From Bacteroidota bacterium (GTDB lineage: Bacteria > Bacteroidota > Bacteroidia > Cytophagales > Cyclobacteriaceae), in the NCBI GenBank assembly GCA_018267215.1, contig JAFDYX010000026.1, positions 124,001 to 188,000 on the forward strand: DNA of 64,000 bases, given 5' to 3'. A program made the translations under genes and the position numbers. Positions 1 to 8,941 of this stretch are shown piece after piece. Numbering within the stretch: position 1 is the first letter of the stretch; every line of letters starts with the position of its first letter. Below the pieces are notes generated by a model. It had not been told where the DNA came from. It saw only the letters and a list, made by a program, of their open reading frames with translations, and did not search any database.

Positions 1-3000
1 TATGGCACACAAGCTGACTTTAGGTTATTTCTGAAAGAAGCGCATGCACATGGTATGCGCGTGATTACCGAATTGATTCTGAATCACACCTCGGATCAAC
101 ATCCGTGGTTTCAAAAATCGCGCAAGGCGAGAGCTGGTTCTAAATTCAAGAATTATTACGTGTGGAGCGAAGACCCCGAAAAATACAAAGATGCCAGGCT
201 GATGTTTCCGCAAGAAGAACCTTCCAACTGGTCGTGGGATAACGAAGCAAAATCATATTACTGGCACAGGTTTTACAGGCACATGCCCGAGTTAAACTAC
301 GACAACCCGGAAGTGCAGTTGGAGATGATCAAAGTAATTGACTATTGGCTGAAGTTAGGTGTAGATGGCTTCAGACTTTCGTCTATTCCCTTTCTGTTCG
401 AAAAAGAAGGCACCAGTTGCGAGAATTTACCTGAGACGCACGAGTTTCTAAAAAAAATCAGAACGTATGTTGATAAACACTATGAAAACAAAATACTGAT
501 TGCCGAAGCTAACCTGTGGCCGGAAGATGCAGCCGAATATTTTGGCAAGGGAGATGAGTGTCACATGAGTTTCAACTACCCTTTGATGCCCAGACTTTTC
601 CTGAGCTTGCGCACGGAAGACAGCTACCCGATCATTGATATTATTGAGCAGACACCCACTACAGCCGAAACAAACCAGTGGGCACTTTTTTTACGCAACC
701 ATGATGAGATTGGCTTGGAGATGGTAACCGAAGAAGAAAAAGATTTTCTCTTCAAAGCCTATGCTACCGACCCGCACGTCAAGCACAACATCGGTATCCG
801 CAGGAGGCTGGCACCACTGCTCAATAATGACAGGCGCAAGATAGAACTTCTCTACACCCTTTTATTTTCTTTGCCGGGCACGCCCGTGCTCTACTACGGA
901 GATGAAATAGGCATGGGCGATAACATTTATTTAGGAGACCGATTTGGCGTGCGCACCCCCATGCAGTGGAATGTTAACCTCAATGCCGGTTTTTCTACGG
1001 CCAACCCTCAAAAATTATTTTTGCCCGTAATTGCCGATCCGGCTTACCGATACGAATCTATCAATGTAGCCACGCAGGAAGAAAACCACTCGTCACTACT
1101 CTGGTGGATAAGAAACGTCATGGCGATGCGCAAAAGGCTGGGTGTGTTTGGCCGAGGCGATTTAAAATTTTTGGAAAGCTCCAACGCCAAAGTGCTTTGC
1201 TTTGTGCGCACTTTTAAAAACCAGAAGGTTGCCGTAGTGGCCAACTTGTCGCAGTTTTCGCAATCTGCTACGCTTGATTTTTCTGCTTACAAAGATTGCG
1301 ATGTAACAGAAGTATTCAGCCAAAATCGTTTCAATAGCATTGACAACGGAGATTACACCATCACGCTGGGGCCTTACGGATATTTTTGGCTCCAATTGGA
1401 TGTGTCAGAAAAGAAAGAACAGGTTTCTGCATCAGGCGAGTTGCCGCTTTTCCAGTCGGATTTGTCGTGGGAGCGAACCTTTTCTAATTATGAGAATATT
1501 CGCTTTTTGGAGCGGAAGGTGCTGCAATCCTTCATAAAAAAATGCCGATGGTTTGGAGGCAAGGCGCGCACAATTTCTAAAGTAGGCATTCATAAAATGA
1601 TTCCTGTGAAGGCAGAAGGAGAGATGCACTATCTCTCGATCATGGAAGTACATTATGTACAACGCCTTCCCGAATTTTATTTTTTGCCCATCTATTTCGC
1701 TCCGTCTGATACGCTTTTCGATAAGGTGGAATTTGTGGCACAAAGTGTAATCTGCCGTGCCGACTTTCAGGGGAAAACAGGCTTTCTGGTAGATAGTAGT
1801 TACGACAAAGGCTTTCGCGATTTTCTCTTTCAGGCGATGGACAGAAAAGTGCGGATGAAGGATGAAGAGGGCACGCTGGAGTTTAATTCCAGCGTATATG
1901 TTAAACTCAATGCCGATACTGTTGATTCAAAACTTCTCAAAGCCGAGCAAAGCAACACATCCATTATTTACAACGACAAGTTTTTCTTTAAGTTTTATCG
2001 GAAAATAGAAAAGGAAATAAATCCCGATTTGGAAATCATCAGGTTCTTGTCAGAGAATACAAATTTTCGCAACTCACCAAAATATGCCGGCAGCATAGAG
2101 TACCACGATAATGATGGACAGGTAATGGTCTTTGGCTTGCTACAAGAAAAAGTGGATAACCAGGGAGACAGTTGGGCTATGACATTAGATTCTGTCGGCC
2201 GCTTTTATGAACGGGTGATGACTCGTGCAAAAAAGGAAAAGCCACCGAAGCTCAACAACAAATCGTCTGTTACTTTTGAAGAAGCACCTGAGCTGATTCA
2301 AGAACTGATCGGGCAAGGATTTTACGAGCGCGTAGTGCGTCTGGGGCAACGAACGGCAGAGATGCACCTGGCGTTGGCTTCCGATAAAACCAATCTGGCA
2401 TTTGCCCCCGAATATTTTACGGCCAACTACCAACGGTCGCTGTATTCGTCCTTGCGCAAATTGCTCCGCGACCGCCTGAAGTTACTCGAGCAATCGCTCT
2501 CCAAATTCAATGTGCAGACACAAGCGTTGGCAAAAGAAGTATTGGCAGCCGAAGAACTAATTCTTGAGTGCTTCAGTGAGATATACCAGGTGAAGATGCA
2601 GGCTATCAAAACCCGCATCCATGGCGACTACCATTTGGGGCAAGTGCTGTTTACCGGAAAAGACTTTGTCATTATTGATTTTGAAGGTGAACCTGGGTTT
2701 ACTTTCAGCGAAAGAAGATTAAAAAAGAATCCTTTAAAAGATGTAGCCGGTATGATGCGCTCATTCCATTATGCTGCTTTAGGGAAAATATTATTGAATG
2801 AAAATTACCGCGAAAAAGATCTGGAGCTTTTAGGCCAGTGGGCAGAACAGTGGCAACATTATGTCAGCCGGTTTTATATGGGTGCCTACATGGAAAAGAT
2901 GGGGCTCGGCAAAAACCTGCCGGAGGCAGAAGAAGTACTGATGCGTGTTTATCTATTGGAGAAAGCCATCTATGAATTAGGATATGAACTGAATGGCCGC

Positions 3001-3087
3001 CCCGACTGGGTGGTTATACCGCTTCGCGGAATTATGTACCAGGTAAACCGCTACCTGCTGGCCAAAGAATTAAAGAAGGGAAACTAA
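1..3087 (+). CDS. treS: Trehalose synthase / maltokinase fusion (TreS-Mak), 5' partial
   Basis: The reading frame is open from base 1, so the start lies upstream; the first internal ATG at 55 is not the true start. The N-terminal part (to about base 1420) is a GH13 TreS domain, which interconverts maltose and trehalose. It has [41 protein letters not shown] and LRNHDE. The C-terminal part (about 1440-3087) is a maltokinase, which makes maltose 1-phosphate with ATP; it has [10 protein letters not shown] (catalytic Asp codon 2626-2628) and IIDFEGEP. The acid/base Glu (505-507) and third Asp (703-705) of GH13 are present. The nucleophile position in DGFRLDAVPYL of known TreS reads [11 protein letters not shown], with Ser at codon 379-381, and the region I Asp is Glu (70-72). 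The maltokinase half looks intact; the isomerase half may be inactive. It is followed by glgB after a gap of about 10 bases. Confidence 0.93.
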
Positions 3088-3097
3088 CTGCTTGGTT

Positions 3098-5068
3098 ATG
3101 GCAAAGAAAAGTAAAACTCAATCCGCTGAAACAAAAAATACGTTTAGTTTACTAACCGATTTTGACATTCATCTTTTCCGATCGGGCAAGCACTATAAGC
3201 TTTACGAAAAACTGGGAGCGCACGAGATGAACCATAACGGAGCGCACGGAATTTATTTTGCTGTGTGGGCGCCCAATGCAACCCATGTTTCCGTCATCGG
3301 AAATTTTAATCATTGGAAAAGTAACGAACATACATTGCATGCCCGCTGGGATGAATCGGGGATATGGGAAGGTTTTTTTCCGGGGCTTACCAAAGGAGAG
3401 GCGTATAAGTTTGCTATTCAATCTAACACAGGCGAGTATTTAGAAAAGGCCGACCCTTTTGCCCGCTATGCCGAAATAGCCCCGCGCACAGCCTCTATTG
3501 TTTGGCACGAACCCTATAAGTGGCGCGATCACGCATGGTTAGAAAGACGCAAAAGCCTTACCGGAAAGCCACAACCCTATTCAGTTTACGAAGTGCACAT
3601 GGGTAGCTGGAGGCGGAAAGCTGAAGATGGAAACCGGTCGCTCAGCTATGGCGAACTGGCGGCAGAGTTGGTTTCGTATGTTAAAGAGGCGGGCTTTACA
3701 CATGTAGAATTTTTGCCCGTCATGGAGCATCCGTTTTTTGGATCATGGGGCTATCAACTGACGGGCTATTATGCGCCCACCAGCCGTTTTGGATCACCAC
3801 AGGAATTTATGGCCTTGGTAGATGCTTTTCATCAGGCAGAGATCGGGGTGATACTCGATTGGGTTCCTTCTCATTTTCCGGGAGACGCACATGGGCTTTT
3901 TAAGTTTGATGGCACACACCTGTACGAACATGCCGATCCCCGCAAGGGTTTTCACCCCGACTGGAGCAGCTACATTTATAACTATGGCAGAAACGAGGTA
4001 CGATCGTTTTTGATCAGCAACGCTTTCTTCTGGCTCGATCAGTTTCATATTGACGGCTTGCGGGTAGATGCTGTGGCCTCTATGTTGTACTTAGATTATT
4101 CGCGCAAGCAAGGAGAGTGGATACCCAACCAATATGGAGGAAACGAAAATCTGGAAGCCATTCAGTTTCTGAAGGAATTTAATGAAACTGTTTACGGTCA
4201 CTTTCCTGATGTTGTTACCATCGCAGAAGAGTCAACTGCTTGGTCGGGTGTGTCGCGTCCAACATATTTAGGCGGGCTGGGCTTTGGACAAAAATGGATG
4301 ATGGGCTGGATGCACGACACGTTGCGTTATTTTAAAGACGATCCGGTTTATCGCAAATACCATCAGAATGAAATTACGTTTAGCATCATGTATGCTTTTA
4401 CGGAGAATTTTATGCTGCCGCTGTCGCACGATGAAGTGGTACATGGCAAAGGGTCGCTGCTGGGCCGTATGCCGGGCGATGAGTGGAAACGGTTTGCCAA
4501 CCTGCGGCTGATGTATGCTTATATGTTTGCACACCCGGGCACCAAACTGCTGTTTATGGGCGGGGAGATCGGGCAATCGGGCGAGTGGAATCATGACAGC
4601 AGTATTGACTGGCATTTATTAGATCATGATCTGCACCGGGGTGTGCTGCGTCTAATACAAGACCTGAACCAATTTTATAAAAGCGAACCGGCTCTGTATC
4701 ATTTTCCTTTTTCTGATCGCGGCTTTGAGTGGGTGGATTATTCCGATCGCGAAAACAGTGTGATCGTATTCATGCGCAAAAGCGAAGATCCGGCCGAGTC
4801 GCTGTTAGTAGCCTGCAATTTTACACCCGAAGTACGCCATCAATACCGGCTGGGCGTACCTACACGCGGCTCGTGGAAAGAAGTATTTAATTCTGATGAC
4901 CTGAAATACGGAGGCAGCGGGCAACTCAATACAGGGTTGCAGTTTACTTCACCGGTAAAATATCATAACAAAGACTATTCGCTGTGCATTACACTGCCGC
5001 CATTAGCCATCTCTGTGATGAAACTCCACGAAGAAAAAAATGAATTTGAGCTTGAGGCCGGTAGTTGA
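3098..5068 (+). CDS. glgB: 1,4-alpha-glucan branching enzyme GlgB
   Basis: Transfers short alpha-1,4 chains to form alpha-1,6 branches in glycogen. An N-terminal CBM48-type domain (about residues 30-115, with [19 protein letters not shown]) precedes a GH13 barrel. The catalytic triad is visible: nucleophile Asp324 in [11 protein letters not shown] (codon 4067-4069), acid/base Glu in IAEESTAW, and Asp in [12 protein letters not shown]. The length of 656 residues is normal. A TTG at 3092 would add two residues, but the ATG at 3098 is preferred. It is co-directional with, and almost abuts, the TreS-Mak gene, consistent with a maltose-1-phosphate to glycogen route. GlgE, which would use that phosphate, is not in the window and may lie upstream. 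Confidence 0.97.
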
Positions 5069-5346: not shown

Positions 5347-7749
5347 ATGGCACATACCACCCATCACTATGTTTGTATTCATGGTCACTTTTATCAGCCG
5401 CCCCGCGAGAATGCCTGGCTGGAGGTAATTGAGAAGCAAGACTCGGCTCATCCATACCACGACTGGAACGAACGCATTACATCCGAATGTTACGAACCCA
5501 ACGCTACTTCGCGTATTCTGGATGAAGACAATGTAATACGCAACATCGTAAACAACTACTCAAAAATCAGTTTCAATTTCGGTCCCACATTACTTTCATG
5601 GATGGAAGTCAATGCGCGTGATACTTACGAGGCCATCTTGCAAGCCGACAAAGACAGTATAATACGTTTTGGCGGCCATGGCTCGGCCATCGCTCAAGTG
5701 TATAATCATATCATTATGCCGCTGGCCAATGCCAGAGACAAGGAAACACAAGTGATATGGGGCATCCGCGATTTTGAAACCCGCTTTGGGCGTAAGCCCG
5801 AAGGTATGTGGCTGGCAGAAACAGCCGTAGATACTGAAACGCTTGAGGTGCTGGCCAACAACGACATCAAATTTACTATTCTCGCACCCCGGCAAGCGCA
5901 GGCTGTCAGAAAAACCGGAGAAGAGAAATGGGATGAAGTAAATGACCACACACTGAACACACGGCAAGCGTACCGTTGCTCGTTGCCTTCCGGAAAATCA
6001 ATTGACTTATTTTTTTATAACGGAGATATTTCGCAGTCTATTGCCTTTAACGGTTTACTCAACGATGGCAAACGATTTGCCGAAACGCTGCTGGGTGCCA
6101 TTGACCCGCAAGATGAACAGCAGCAGTTAATACATGTAGCCACCGATGGAGAAACGTACGGGCATCACCACAAACATGGCGATATGGCGCTTGCCTTTTG
6201 CCTGGACTACATCGAAAAAAATGAAAAAGCAAAACTGACAAACTACAGTCAGTATCTATCTCTTTTTCCGCCTACTTACGAAGTACAGATCATCGAAAAA
6301 AGTTCGTGGAGTTGTGTGCATGGGGTAGAACGCTGGAGAAATAACTGTGGGTGTAATTCGGGCGGCCATGCAGAATGGAGTCAGCAATGGCGTAAACCAC
6401 TGCGCGATGCCATGGACTGGCTGCGCGACACTACGACCACGATTTTTGAGAGAGAAGCAGTATCTATTTTAACTGATCCGTGGAAGGCACGCAACGATTT
6501 TGTGAATGTGATACTCAGGCGCAACGAGCATACCATTCGTCATTTTTTAAGCCAGCATGCCAAAGAGAATGTATCGCCCGTAAAGGTGATGTACCTGATG
6601 GAAATGGAACGGAACACGATGCTGATGTACACCAGTTGCGGATGGTTTTTCGATGAAGTATCTGGCATCGAAACCACACAGGTGATGGAGTTTGCCTGCC
6701 GGGTTATTCAATTAGCCCGACAACTCGATGATACCGATATTGAACAACAATATATTCAACATCTGGAAGCAGCCCCCAGCAATGTGGCTACCTACGGCAA
6801 TGCAGCTCGGGTTTATGAAAAAATAGTGATACCCTCGTTGATCAACCTGAAACGTGTGGGTATGCATTTTGCCATGTCTTCTATTTTTGAAGACGAACCT
6901 GAAGCGCTGACGATCTTCAATTATTCTACCACGAGCGAATCTATCGTTAAAAAAGCTGCAGGAGAGCAGCGGCTGGCAGTAGGTATGATCACAGCCCGGT
7001 CACTCGTTACATTATCCGAAAGAAAATTTGCGTTTGCAGTTATTTATTTAGGCAAGCACAACATCATCGGCAATATTTCTATCGACATGGAACCCGATAA
7101 TTTTACAGGCATGCAGTTTCGTATGGTCAAAGCATTTGAAGAAGGCAGGCTGGGCGATGTAATCGGAACGATGCAGATGTATTTTGGCCCCGAGAAATAC
7201 ACGATCTGGCAACTGTTCAGCGATGAAAAACGTAAAATTTTAGAATCCATCGCCCAGGAAAGCATGGCTGAGTTAGAACAATCTTTGCGCAAAAGCTACA
7301 ATAGCGATTATCAACTCATCACCGCGTTGGCCAACAACGGCCTTCCGATTCCTAATGCCTACCGCTCTACGTTTGAGTATATTTTGAATGCTGATTTGGT
7401 AAAAAGTTTTATGGCAGAAAAAATCAACATCAAAGAAATGGAGCGTATTTCTGCTGAACTCACTCGTTGGAATCTGAAAATTGAAGATACTGAAAAGCTA
7501 TCGCGTATTGCGGGCGAGAGCATCTGGAAAGAATTGAGAAGAATTAACAGCGAACGCGAAAATGTGAAGCGGCTGCAACGACTGAACCGCCTGTTTCCAC
7601 TGCTTAAAAAATTTGCGTTAGACCCTAACTTGCACAAAAGCCAGAATCAATATTTTCAAATGTCGAAAGAAACGCACCATCAACCCACATCTGAGTGGAG
7701 CGATCAGTTTGCACTGCTGGGGATGAACTTAGGAGTTAAGGTAAGTTAG
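5347..7749 (+). CDS. GH57 family glycosidase with DUF3536 domain
   Basis: Putative alpha-amylase/alpha-mannosidase-type glycoside hydrolase of family 57, 800 residues. The N-terminal half has HGHFYQPPRENAW, GHGSAIAQVYNH, the nucleophile motif GMWLAETAVD (Glu) and the acid/base motif HVATDGETYGHHHKHGD (Asp). A conserved patch ENCGCNSG-like (NNCGCNSGGHAEW) follows near residues 335-350. The C-terminal half, about residues 480-790, matches the DUF3536 region that accompanies this subfamily. There is no signal peptide, so it is probably cytoplasmic and acts on storage alpha-glucan, in keeping with glgB and TreS-Mak upstream. Its exact substrate cannot be read from sequence. Its 3' end overlaps the convergent DAACS gene by 14 bases. 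Confidence 0.9.
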   Translation: MAHTTHHYVCIHGHFYQPPRENAWLEVIEKQDSAHPYHDWNERITSECYEPNATSRILDEDNVIRNIVNNYSKISFNFGPTLLSWMEVNARDTYEAILQADKDSIIRFGGHGSAIAQVYNHIIMPLANARDKETQVIWGIRDFETRFGRKPEGMWLAETAVDTETLEVLANNDIKFTILAPRQAQAVRKTGEEKWDEVNDHTLNTRQAYRCSLPSGKSIDLFFYNGDISQSIAFNGLLNDGKRFAETLLGAIDPQDEQQQLIHVATDGETYGHHHKHGDMALAFCLDYIEKNEKAKLTNYSQYLSLFPPTYEVQIIEKSSWSCVHGVERWRNNCGCNSGGHAEWSQQWRKPLRDAMDWLRDTTTTIFEREAVSILTDPWKARNDFVNVILRRNEHTIRHFLSQHAKENVSPVKVMYLMEMERNTMLMYTSCGWFFDEVSGIETTQVMEFACRVIQLARQLDDTDIEQQYIQHLEAAPSNVATYGNAARVYEKIVIPSLINLKRVGMHFAMSSIFEDEPEALTIFNYSTTSESIVKKAAGEQRLAVGMITARSLVTLSERKFAFAVIYLGKHNIIGNISIDMEPDNFTGMQFRMVKAFEEGRLGDVIGTMQMYFGPEKYTIWQLFSDEKRKILESIAQESMAELEQSLRKSYNSDYQLITALANNGLPIPNAYRSTFEYILNADLVKSFMAEKINIKEMERISAELTRWNLKIEDTEKLSRIAGESIWKELRRINSERENVKRLQRLNRLFPLLKKFALDPNLHKSQNQYFQMSKETHHQPTSEWSDQFALLGMNLGVKVS

Positions 7750-8941
7750 CTTCATCACCTGCTTCAAATTCTTCTTCACTTTTCGAAATGACTAATGTGG
7801 CCACTCCGTTTCCGATAATGTTGGTAATAGCGCGGGCTTCGCTCATAAATTTATCAACACCCAGTAAAAATGCCAATCCCTCTACCGGTATTTTGTGAAT
7901 AGCCGTTAGGGTAGAGGCCAATACGATAAAGCCACTTCCGGTAACACCGGCCGCTCCTTTGGAGGTAATCATCAATATTCCCAGCACAGATGCCAATTCG
8001 CCCAGCGACAATTGTATGCCGTAGAGTTGGGCGATGAATAATACTGCCATTGACAAATAGATAGACGTGCCATCTAAATTAAAAGAGTAACCTGTGGGCA
8101 CAACCAATCCTACTACCGGTTTGCTGCACCCCATGTTCTCTAACTTTTTCATCAATGAAGGCAGGGCGGCTTCTGAAGAGGAGGTGGCTAAAACGATCAG
8201 CACTTCTTCTTTGATCACTTTCAAAAAATTAATAATTTTTATGCGGTAGAAACGCAGAATAGTACCCAGCACAAAAAATATAAACAAGGCCATCGTAATA
8301 TAGACGCACACCATTAATTTGGCCAACGGCACCAGCGAGTGCCAGCCGAATTTACCAACGGCAAAAGCAATTCCGCCAAAGGCGCCCAGCGGGGCGAGGT
8401 ACATCACATAGCGAAGCAACTTGTACACGATGGCAGCAACTTTTTCAAGCCACTGCAAAATCTGCTCTCGTTTAGACAGATGGCTGATGATAACCCCCGA
8501 AATAATGGCGGCTACTAACACTTGCAAGGTGAAGTTGGCTGTGAAGAACCGGATCCAGTTGAATCCCTCGTCCGCTTTATTTTTTAGAACAGAAACATCT
8601 TGAACTGATAACCCTGCTTTGTCTATTTCTCCGGGCTTAATGATGAGCGCTACGCCTATACCGATCAGGAGTGCCAACGTGGTAACCAACTCAAAATAGA
8701 TCAACGCCTTCATACCTACTCGACCTACTTTTTTTAAATTTCCGATACCGGCTATGCCCAATGTTATGGTAAGGAATATGATGGGCCCAATAAACAGCTT
8801 TAAGATGCTGACAAACGTATTGCCTATAACTTCAGATTGAATACCGGTTGCTGGAAAATAATGACCTACAGCTATACCTGCTACAATGGCCAGCAACACT
8901 TGAAAGGCCAGATTGCTTAGAAGACTGCGTATAATCTTCAA
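7736..8941 (-). CDS. Dicarboxylate/amino acid:cation symporter (DAACS family)
   Basis: Secondary transporter for C4-dicarboxylates or acidic amino acids, driven by Na+ or H+, in the inner membrane. It has about eight hydrophobic segments, the serine-rich re-entrant loop ATSSSEAALPSL and the ion/substrate motif GYSFNLDGTSIY. The length of 401 residues is typical. The only sensible start is TTG at 8941, which overlaps the stop of the upstream desaturase as TTGA; this suggests translational coupling. Substrate specificity (glutamate, aspartate or succinate) cannot be decided. Confidence 0.92.
   Translation of the reverse strand: MKIIRSLLSNLAFQVLLAIVAGIAVGHYFPATGIQSEVIGNTFVSILKLFIGPIIFLTITLGIAGIGNLKKVGRVGMKALIYFELVTTLALLIGIGVALIIKPGEIDKAGLSVQDVSVLKNKADEGFNWIRFFTANFTLQVLVAAIISGVIISHLSKREQILQWLEKVAAIVYKLLRYVMYLAPLGAFGGIAFAVGKFGWHSLVPLAKLMVCVYITMALFIFFVLGTILRFYRIKIINFLKVIKEEVLIVLATSSSEAALPSLMKKLENMGCSKPVVGLVVPTGYSFNLDGTSIYLSMAVLFIAQLYGIQLSLGELASVLGILMITSKGAAGVTGSGFIVLASTLTAIHKIPVEGLAFLLGVDKFMSEARAITNIIGNGVATLVISKSEEEFEAGDEANLP

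Follow-up and report, generated by a model that had tools for sequence, protein, structure and literature searches.

Loss of the catalytic nucleophile throughout a clade of trehalose synthase-maltokinase fusions points to a probable pseudo-isomerase in the GlgE pathway of Cyclobacteriaceae

Trehalose synthase (TreS) and maltokinase (Mak, or Pep2) have been described both as partner proteins and as the two halves of one chain; published work is cited here by PMC number and for the passages that bear on the present case. The effect of TreS on the kinase differs between Mycobacterium tuberculosis and Mycobacterium smegmatis (PMC6509496). In Pseudomonas aeruginosa, MalQ together with TreS/Pep2 converts maltohexaose and ATP to maltose 1-phosphate, trehalose not being needed (PMC8084333). 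The M. tuberculosis variant TreS-D238A, built as an inactive enzyme, has a ligand-free crystal structure consistent with that of the wild type, and its loops move when it binds a trehalose analogue (PMC11019547). The DNA analysed here, a stretch of 64,000 nucleotides from a Cyclobacteriaceae genome (assembly GCA_018267215.1, contig JAFDYX010000026.1, positions 124,001 to 188,000; hereafter the window), opens inside a gene for a TreS-maltokinase fusion in which serine stands in place of the TreS nucleophile aspartate. The loss of this aspartate is common to a whole clade, and the protein probably joins a pseudo-trehalose-synthase, retained as a folded unit, to a maltokinase that serves a GlgE pathway whose maltose does not derive from trehalose.

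The open reading frame (ORF) at positions 1-3087 of the window encodes the C-terminal 1028 residues of the 1108-residue fusion. The 5' end of the gene lies beyond the window start, and the first 80 residues were read from the assembly (L003:11761-15087). The codon at the nucleophile position is TCG and specifies Ser207 of the full-length fusion, which is residue 127 in the window ORF; in both PDB alignments this serine aligns with the nucleophile Asp of the solved TreS proteins 5x7u and 5h2t. Retaining GH13 enzymes require the nucleophile Asp for the covalent intermediate. In other respects the protein conforms to its families, exceeding the curated cut-off of TIGR02456 (TreS, GH13_16, EC 5.4.99.16) and the cut-off of TIGR02457 (Mak/Pep2, EC 2.7.1.175). 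The codons of the acid/base Glu and the third catalytic Asp, as well as the kinase motifs HGDYH and DFEGEP, are present in the window letters (Table 1). A first-pass annotation, made from the sequence alone, had described the replacement of the nucleophile by Ser, the intact Glu and third Asp, and the retained HGDYH and IDFEGEP motifs, and each of these observations is borne out by the window sequence and the alignments of the clade.

TreS domains without Asp at residue 207 are termed D-less below, and those with it canonical. The 175 D-less rows of the joint alignment comprise 55 loci and 120 clustered proteins, two overlapping sets, the latter being the matches listed from a protein search in which 7998 candidates were scored. 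The 145 other TreS domains comprise 112 full-length canonical fusions and 33 TreS-only or partial proteins. All 145 of the latter carry Asp at position 207, whereas the D-less rows have Pro (99), Ala (48), Ser (25) or Gly (3). The Asp-Glu-Asp triad of trehalose synthase is thus incomplete in every D-less row, with no nucleophile Asp in any of the 175, the Glu kept in 174 and the third Asp in all. Among the 120 listed proteins, residue 207 is Pro in 72, Ala in 33, Ser in 14 and Gly in one, and neither the Glu nor the third Asp is missing in any.

The fusion is present in 47/58 genomes of the window's genus. Asp207 occurs in none of the 45 whose N-terminal half was read (G005, with internal stops, and G013, with the C-terminal part only, were left out), and it is likewise absent in 10/10 genomes from other genera of the family bearing the clade's copy. 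Searches of the order and phylum gave no match of at least 60% identity outside the family, save a 63% identical TreS fragment (G730) in which residue 207 is unread. At the phylum level there were matches in 100/395 genomes; in the 31 of these where residue 207 was read, it is Asp in 27 and another residue in 4. Among at least 80 loci from named genome records 4 are D-less (L090, L091, L092, L127), the records being labelled Cyclobacteriaceae bacterium (two), Bacteroidetes bacterium (one) and Chryseolinea sp. (one).

A quick tree was computed, with columns 200-215 excluded, from 52 D-less fusions and 65 canonical ones (a thinned subset of the 112). In it the two kinds are split by a single branch with a Shimodaira-Hasegawa-like approximate likelihood ratio test (SH-aLRT) value of 100; calling the D-less side a clade presumes a root on the canonical side. 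Parsimony on this tree gives 14 changes of residue 207 within the D-less rows, and the closest relatives (G001, G032) have Ala. The occurrence of four residues with 14 changes indicates that no single chemistry has been selected at this position. The first-pass annotation's focus on a D-to-S change therefore stands as regards the loss of Asp, which is clade-wide, and not as regards Ser, one of four residues that occupy the site. A read error at 379-381 and a shifted alignment are both excluded, since a non-Asp residue recurs across genus, family and protein matches and Asp is missing in every clade member read. The nucleophile loss is a genuine clade trait. An essential catalytic residue is lost and the rest of the sequence conserved throughout a lineage, as is characteristic of pseudo-enzymes. 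No earlier account of a nucleophile-less TreS or of the D-less clade was found in titles and passages of open-licence PMC papers.

The maltokinase half appears intact. The HGD Asp, the DFE Asp and the phosphate-binding Lys are kept in 174/174 readable D-less rows; the first of these is the catalytic residue and the second binds Mg (PMC4306142). When positions at least 97% conserved in full-length canonical fusions are taken as invariant, the D-less clade keeps their residue, again by a 97% criterion, at 19/19 such positions of the Mak half and at 139/180 of the TreS half. Relative rates were measured against the GlgE fragment adjoining each gene, a yardstick whose own rates may differ between groups. 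By this measure, the Mak half scores 1.14, 1.02 and 0.87 in three divergence bins of D-less fusions versus 1.75, 1.85 and 1.49 in canonical Bacteroidota fusions, and the TreS half 0.93, 0.78 and 0.69 versus 0.51, 0.55 and 0.67, being faster in two bins and about equal in the third. With GlgB as the yardstick the differences point the same way in each of the three bins, two cells containing just 6 and 8 pairs. The ratio of TreS to Mak distances is 0.72-0.82 in the clade versus 0.27-0.31 in canonical fusions (Mak distances of 0.02-0.4). The yardstick comparisons suggest a shift of selective weight away from the isomerase and towards the kinase.

The trehalose and glycogen genes were compared in 47 chosen genomes: 27 with D-less copies only (21 from the window's genus; status assigned from searches of which the wider two scored the top 6 or 3 candidates in each genome), 4 with both kinds, 10 with canonical copies only, and 6 genus members without the fusion. 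In these four groups OtsA exceeds its cut-off in 3/27, 4/4, 10/10 and 1/6 genomes; TreY is present in 0/27, 4/4, 10/10 and 0/6; MalQ exceeds its cut-off in 0/27, 3/4 (the copy in G153 being broken up), 10/10 and 0/6; and GlgE is present in 27/27, 4/4, 9/10 and 0/6, thus in 31/31 searched genomes bearing a D-less copy. None of OtsA, TreY, MalQ, GlgA and GlgC exceeds its cut-off in 21/27 D-less-only genomes, that of the window included. The D-less copy goes together with the absence of trehalose-making genes. Fisher tests on gene content gave small p-values, which are accorded no weight in view of the relatedness of the genomes and of the absence of TreY and MalQ from the 6 fusion-free genus members as well.

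In the window's own genome (assembly 96% complete) no OtsA, TreY or second TreS was found; the other match there, at C12:228985, is a distant GH13 protein with 26% identity. Two checks that the first-pass annotation had proposed, for glgE and for a second treS, thus gave opposite outcomes, glgE being found adjacent to the fusion gene. Trehalose-derived maltose, which would take OtsA or TreY-TreZ plus an active TreS, is not provided for in this genome, and the adjacent glgE and glgB of the GlgE pathway are present in 18/18 D-less loci examined. The classical GlgC-GlgA route was rejected as an explanation: GlgA exceeds its cut-off in 0/47 genomes and GlgC in 4/27 D-less-only genomes, beside a GlgA-like gene in 3 of them, and in none of the other three groups. 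In 46/47 genomes, GlgE-free ones included, a protein of roughly 270 residues (G000:C12:16095-16760 and equivalents) resembles GlgA below the cut-off and over the N-terminal part only.

The four genomes with both kinds of fusion are the best control. They contain TreY and OtsA, and their canonical fusion keeps both kinase Asp residues. The single GlgE adjoins the D-less copy in 4/4, and the canonical copy is near TreY in G130 only.

The gene order glgE, fusion, glgB, GH57/DUF3536 is found in 18/18 D-less loci examined (L198-L215), with one extra ORF between glgB and the GH57 gene in L204. GlgE of the window's genome retains the motifs FRVDNP and SEAFTR, as read by eye. A GH13 gene like the one upstream of glgE in this genome is present in 17/18 of these loci, and 14/16 copies with a readable N terminus have a lipobox pattern. 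A second, amylase-like GH13 gene is present in 7/18; its copy in L202 has alpha-amylase A and SusG as best PDB matches. The GH57/DUF3536 protein, for which no NCBIfam model exceeded its cut-off, is possibly a 4-alpha-glucanotransferase, the activity suggested for the GH57 protein of a comparable Pontibacter locus (PMC11206854). A GH57 protein 49% identical to that of the window is encoded between TreY and TreZ in the canonical genome G069 (L216).

Taken together, these data suggest the following scheme. Lacking the Asp, the GH13 domain would be unable to form the covalent glycosyl-enzyme intermediate for trehalose-maltose isomerisation. The dead domain would be kept folded, as a support that holds the kinase half together, and its conserved -1 pocket may still accept a sugar; by analogy, the natural Ala variants should behave like TreS-D238A. 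The fused kinase would phosphorylate maltose of non-trehalose origin, released from external starch or maltodextrin by the putative lipoprotein amylases of the cluster, with intracellular glucan, as rearranged by the GH57 protein, a possible further source. The maltose 1-phosphate could then pass to the adjacent GlgE and, with GlgB, be converted to glycogen. MalQ as the maltose source, in the manner of P. aeruginosa, is unsupported, as no D-less-only genome has it above the cut-off. The proposals of the first-pass annotation that the TreS half may be a pseudo-enzyme, and that the expected flow from trehalose through maltose and maltose 1-phosphate to glycogen is changed, are supported by the sequence and the gene content.

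The converse loss also occurs. The kinase HGD Asp or DFE Asp has been lost, with the TreS nucleophile intact, in 14/112 full-length canonical fusions (L058, L062, L063, L081, L083, L086, L221, L112-L114, L120, L121, L125, L137). Seven of these belong to genomes searched for GlgE, which was not found in 5 (G061, G135, G139, G189, G321); in G142 and G282 GlgE is present and does not adjoin the kinase-broken copy, adjoining a second copy in G142. All 18 searched fusions with both Asp residues and the usual P-loop come from genomes with GlgE (in G238 it is broken and non-adjacent, and in G278 it lies on a separate contig). Some genomes fit this pattern poorly: G060, G122 and G345 keep both kinase Asp residues with no GlgE match, and G200, G229, G269 and G317 keep both with an altered P-loop, DFG in place of DFE, and a GlgE encoded in another part of the genome. 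These losses suggest that, depending on the pathway around it, the fusion can lose the function of either half while the chain stays whole.

Several observations weigh against a pseudo-isomerase on a maltokinase supplied independently of trehalose. The -1 subsite, the acid/base Glu and the third Asp are all kept, which is more than a pure spacer needs. The TreS half appears to be under strong purifying selection, with ratios of nonsynonymous to synonymous substitution rates (omega) of 0.025 and 0.038, values that come from just 2 unsaturated D-less pairs; the canonical ratios (574 pairs), apparently distorted by saturation, were left unused. The presence of OtsA in 3 D-less-only genomes means that trehalose may exist in them, and GlgC in 4/27 possibly represents another route to maltose 1-phosphate or glycogen. 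Since TreY and MalQ are each absent from all 6 fusion-free genus members and 21/27 D-less-only genomes belong to one genus, the missing genes may be a lineage trait, neither cause nor consequence of the nucleophile loss. Finally, 9 genomes of the same order encode a maltokinase-like protein that stands alone, with no TreS half attached (L238-L246), so the kinase fold is not always dependent on that half. These proteins have an intact DFE in 9/9 and HGDYH in 8/9 (by a simple pattern that may miss the ninth). The stretches taken around their genes, some of them short, hold no TreS-like or GlgE-like ORF of at least 200 codons; L242 has glgB next door.

The state of the pocket bears on what the TreS half might do, residue roles being transferred from the Deinococcus enzyme DrTS (PMC4257617). 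The -1 subsite (DrTS Asp63, His106, Glu251, Arg398) is kept in 174-175 of the 175 D-less rows. In the numbering of the fusion, D66, H109, R205, H314, D315 and R394 are kept in 175/175, E249 in 174/175, and the gate residues R146 and N251 in 175/175. The +1 subsite is remodelled: the equivalent of DrTS Ile150 is Met in 142/175 rows, that of Ala210 (residue 208) is Ser or Asn in 175/175, and that of Tyr213 (residue 211) is Phe in 172/175. The Glu320 equivalent is kept in 174/175, and at the equivalent of Glu324 126 rows have Glu and 49 have Asp. The DrTS variants Y213A, E320A and E324A showed no detectable activity (PMC4257617). Further clade-specific changes are seen at residue 69 (Phe in 135/175 versus Tyr in 145/145 canonical domains), residue 177 (Glu in 173/175 versus Asp in 144/145), residue 317 (Ile in 162/175 versus Leu in 145/145) and residue 318 (canonical Thr replaced by Gly or Ala in 175/175). 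Residue 177 lies in conserved region V. The conservative D177E is the only clade-fixed acidic gain near the active site of TreS in this comparison. By alignment, the pocket is conserved yet altered, and its nucleophile is gone. A structure model, with a mean predicted local distance difference test score (pLDDT) of 75.7, a predicted template modelling score (pTM) of 0.54 and low values in the TreS active-site loops, is too weak for judging the pocket. Further decay of the active site is seen in two members: residue 249 is Asp instead of Glu in L235 (G039), and residue 316, the Glu after the third Asp, is Ala in P0008.

Two forms of the pseudo-isomerase explanation differ in the role they give to the dead domain. 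Tentatively, it may be a sugar-gated regulator, whose pocket binds maltose or trehalose and whose loop closure switches the kinase on or off. The conserved -1 subsite and gate residues would suit this role, and precedents are the ligand-induced loop movement in TreS-D238A (PMC11019547) and the rise in Pep2 activity caused by M. tuberculosis TreS, as related in PMC6509496. However, that paper found no comparable effect for the two M. smegmatis proteins, the +1 subsite has been remodelled, and Leu317, which by alignment is the Leu that leaves the pocket in M. tuberculosis TreS, has mostly become Ile. It is rather unlikely that the TreS half is a passive remnant, roleless beyond the fusion and retained since its partial loss would misfold the protein. 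The raised TreS/Mak distance ratio and the stand-alone maltokinase-like proteins of the order speak for such a remnant, but 139/180 invariant TreS positions are conserved, the pocket is better preserved than it would need, and of the 55 D-less loci only G014, G021 and G050 are partial, each starting at a contig end.

A neofunctionalised site is improbable. Here the kept Glu and Asp would do chemistry without a covalent intermediate, for example with phosphate or water in the place of the Asp (inverting), or would act on another substrate. The nearly invariant catalytic and -1 residues listed above and the conserved, clade-specific changes at 208, 211, 177, 317 and 318 speak for such a site. 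Yet residue 207 varies among Pro, Ala, Ser and Gly, with Pro commonest; the Tyr213 needed by DrTS, according to Y213A, is Phe in the clade; the sole fixed acidic change is the conservative D177E; and L235 has Asp for the acid/base Glu. Still less credence is given to one specific version, a GH13 enzyme with an external nucleophile (phosphate or water) in the space vacated by the Asp, which would use the kept Glu and Asp and the remodelled +1 site as an inverting phosphorylase or in a glycosynthase-like manner; if it were true, such an activity inside a retaining family would feed the fused kinase or GlgE. Residual isomerase activity with Ser207 or a carboxylate such as Glu177 as nucleophile is highly improbable: D177E is nearly fixed in the clade, but this Glu replaces an Asp already present in canonical TreS, and the turnover at 207, with Ala in the closest relatives and Pro in most rows, makes a Ser nucleophile very unlikely.

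The features of the window that belong to the fusion and its cluster are listed in Table 1. A dicarboxylate/amino acid:cation symporter-like gene, closest to DctA (below the cut-off), occupies positions 7736-8941 on the minus strand, convergent with the cluster and overlapping its end by 14 bases.

Table 1. Window coordinates of the fusion gene, its functional sites and the downstream cluster genes
Feature	Positions	Strand	Evidence
TreS-like GH13 domain without nucleophile	1..1398	+	residues 81-546; TIGR02456 treS_nterm 690 bits vs cut-off 678.35 (window part); PDB 5x7u E 2.6e-194
Ser207 codon, GH13 nucleophile position	379..381	+	Asp in 145/145 other TreS domains, 0/175 D-less relatives
Ser208, +1 subsite	382..384	+	Ala in 145/145 canonical; Ser 144, Asn 31 in clade; subsite by DrTS Ala210 (PMC4257617)
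Phe211, +1 subsite	391..393	+	Tyr in 142/145 canonical; Phe in 172/175 clade rows
Glu249, general acid/base	505..507	+	kept in 174/175; Asp in L235
Asp315, third catalytic Asp	703..705	+	kept in 175/175
Arg394, -1 subsite	940..942	+	kept in 175/175
Maltokinase (Mak/Pep2) domain	1441..3078	+	TIGR02457 441.7 bits vs cut-off 375.05; matches mycobacterial maltokinases 4o7o, 4u94
Mak P-loop QSNTS	1948..1962	+	motif role per PMC4306142
Mak catalytic loop HGDYH	2620..2634	+	Asp kept in 174/174 readable D-less rows
Mak Mg-binding motif DFEGEP	2677..2694	+	first Asp kept in 174/174 readable D-less rows
GlgB, glycogen branching enzyme	3092..5068	+	PRK05402 976.5 bits vs cut-off 741
GH57/DUF3536 protein	5347..7749	+	PF12055, PF03065; downstream of glgB in 18/18 D-less loci examined

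The clade provides a large natural set of nucleophile-free TreS domains, accompanied by Asp-bearing sister fusions and by genomes holding both kinds, which makes a role of TreS for the maltokinase beyond the making of maltose directly testable. The source-named clade entries among the protein matches listed are called maltose alpha-D-glucosyltransferase, so that many database entries are probably misnamed.

Non-catalytic relatives of GH13 enzymes are known elsewhere: the SLC3 heavy chains rBAT and 4F2hc have GH13-related domains that act as non-catalytic partners. rBAT is among the PDB matches of the fusion protein; unlike it, SLC3 heavy chains are subunits of animal membrane transporters, with an unrelated partner and role. 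The locus of Pontibacter sp. SGAir0037, from the same phylum, resembles the D-less loci in its gene set, which combines amylases, GlgE, TreS, GlgB and GH57, but it retains GH13_10, GH13_26 and GH77, the predicted TreZ, TreY and 4-alpha-glucanotransferase (PMC11206854). The engineered TreS-D238A has the substitution found in the natural Ala variants; there it is man-made in an enzyme whose wild type is an active isomerase (PMC11019547), whereas here the loss is natural and common to a clade. The mycobacterial TreS:Pep2 complex is composed of the same two families, with TreS as the platform for the kinase, but consists of separate proteins (PMC6509496). Closest in architecture are two published TreS-maltokinase fusions, that of P. 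aeruginosa being one, which likewise join an N-terminal TreS to a C-terminal maltokinase in one chain, with glgE and glgB in the cluster. In the passages describing them their TreS halves are reported as active (at a low level in P. aeruginosa), whereas in the fusion described here the nucleophile is missing clade-wide and the trehalose-making genes are mostly absent. What sets the D-less fusions apart from these systems is the natural, clade-wide loss of the TreS nucleophile in a TreS-maltokinase fusion and, most likely, a GlgE pathway that runs independently of trehalose.

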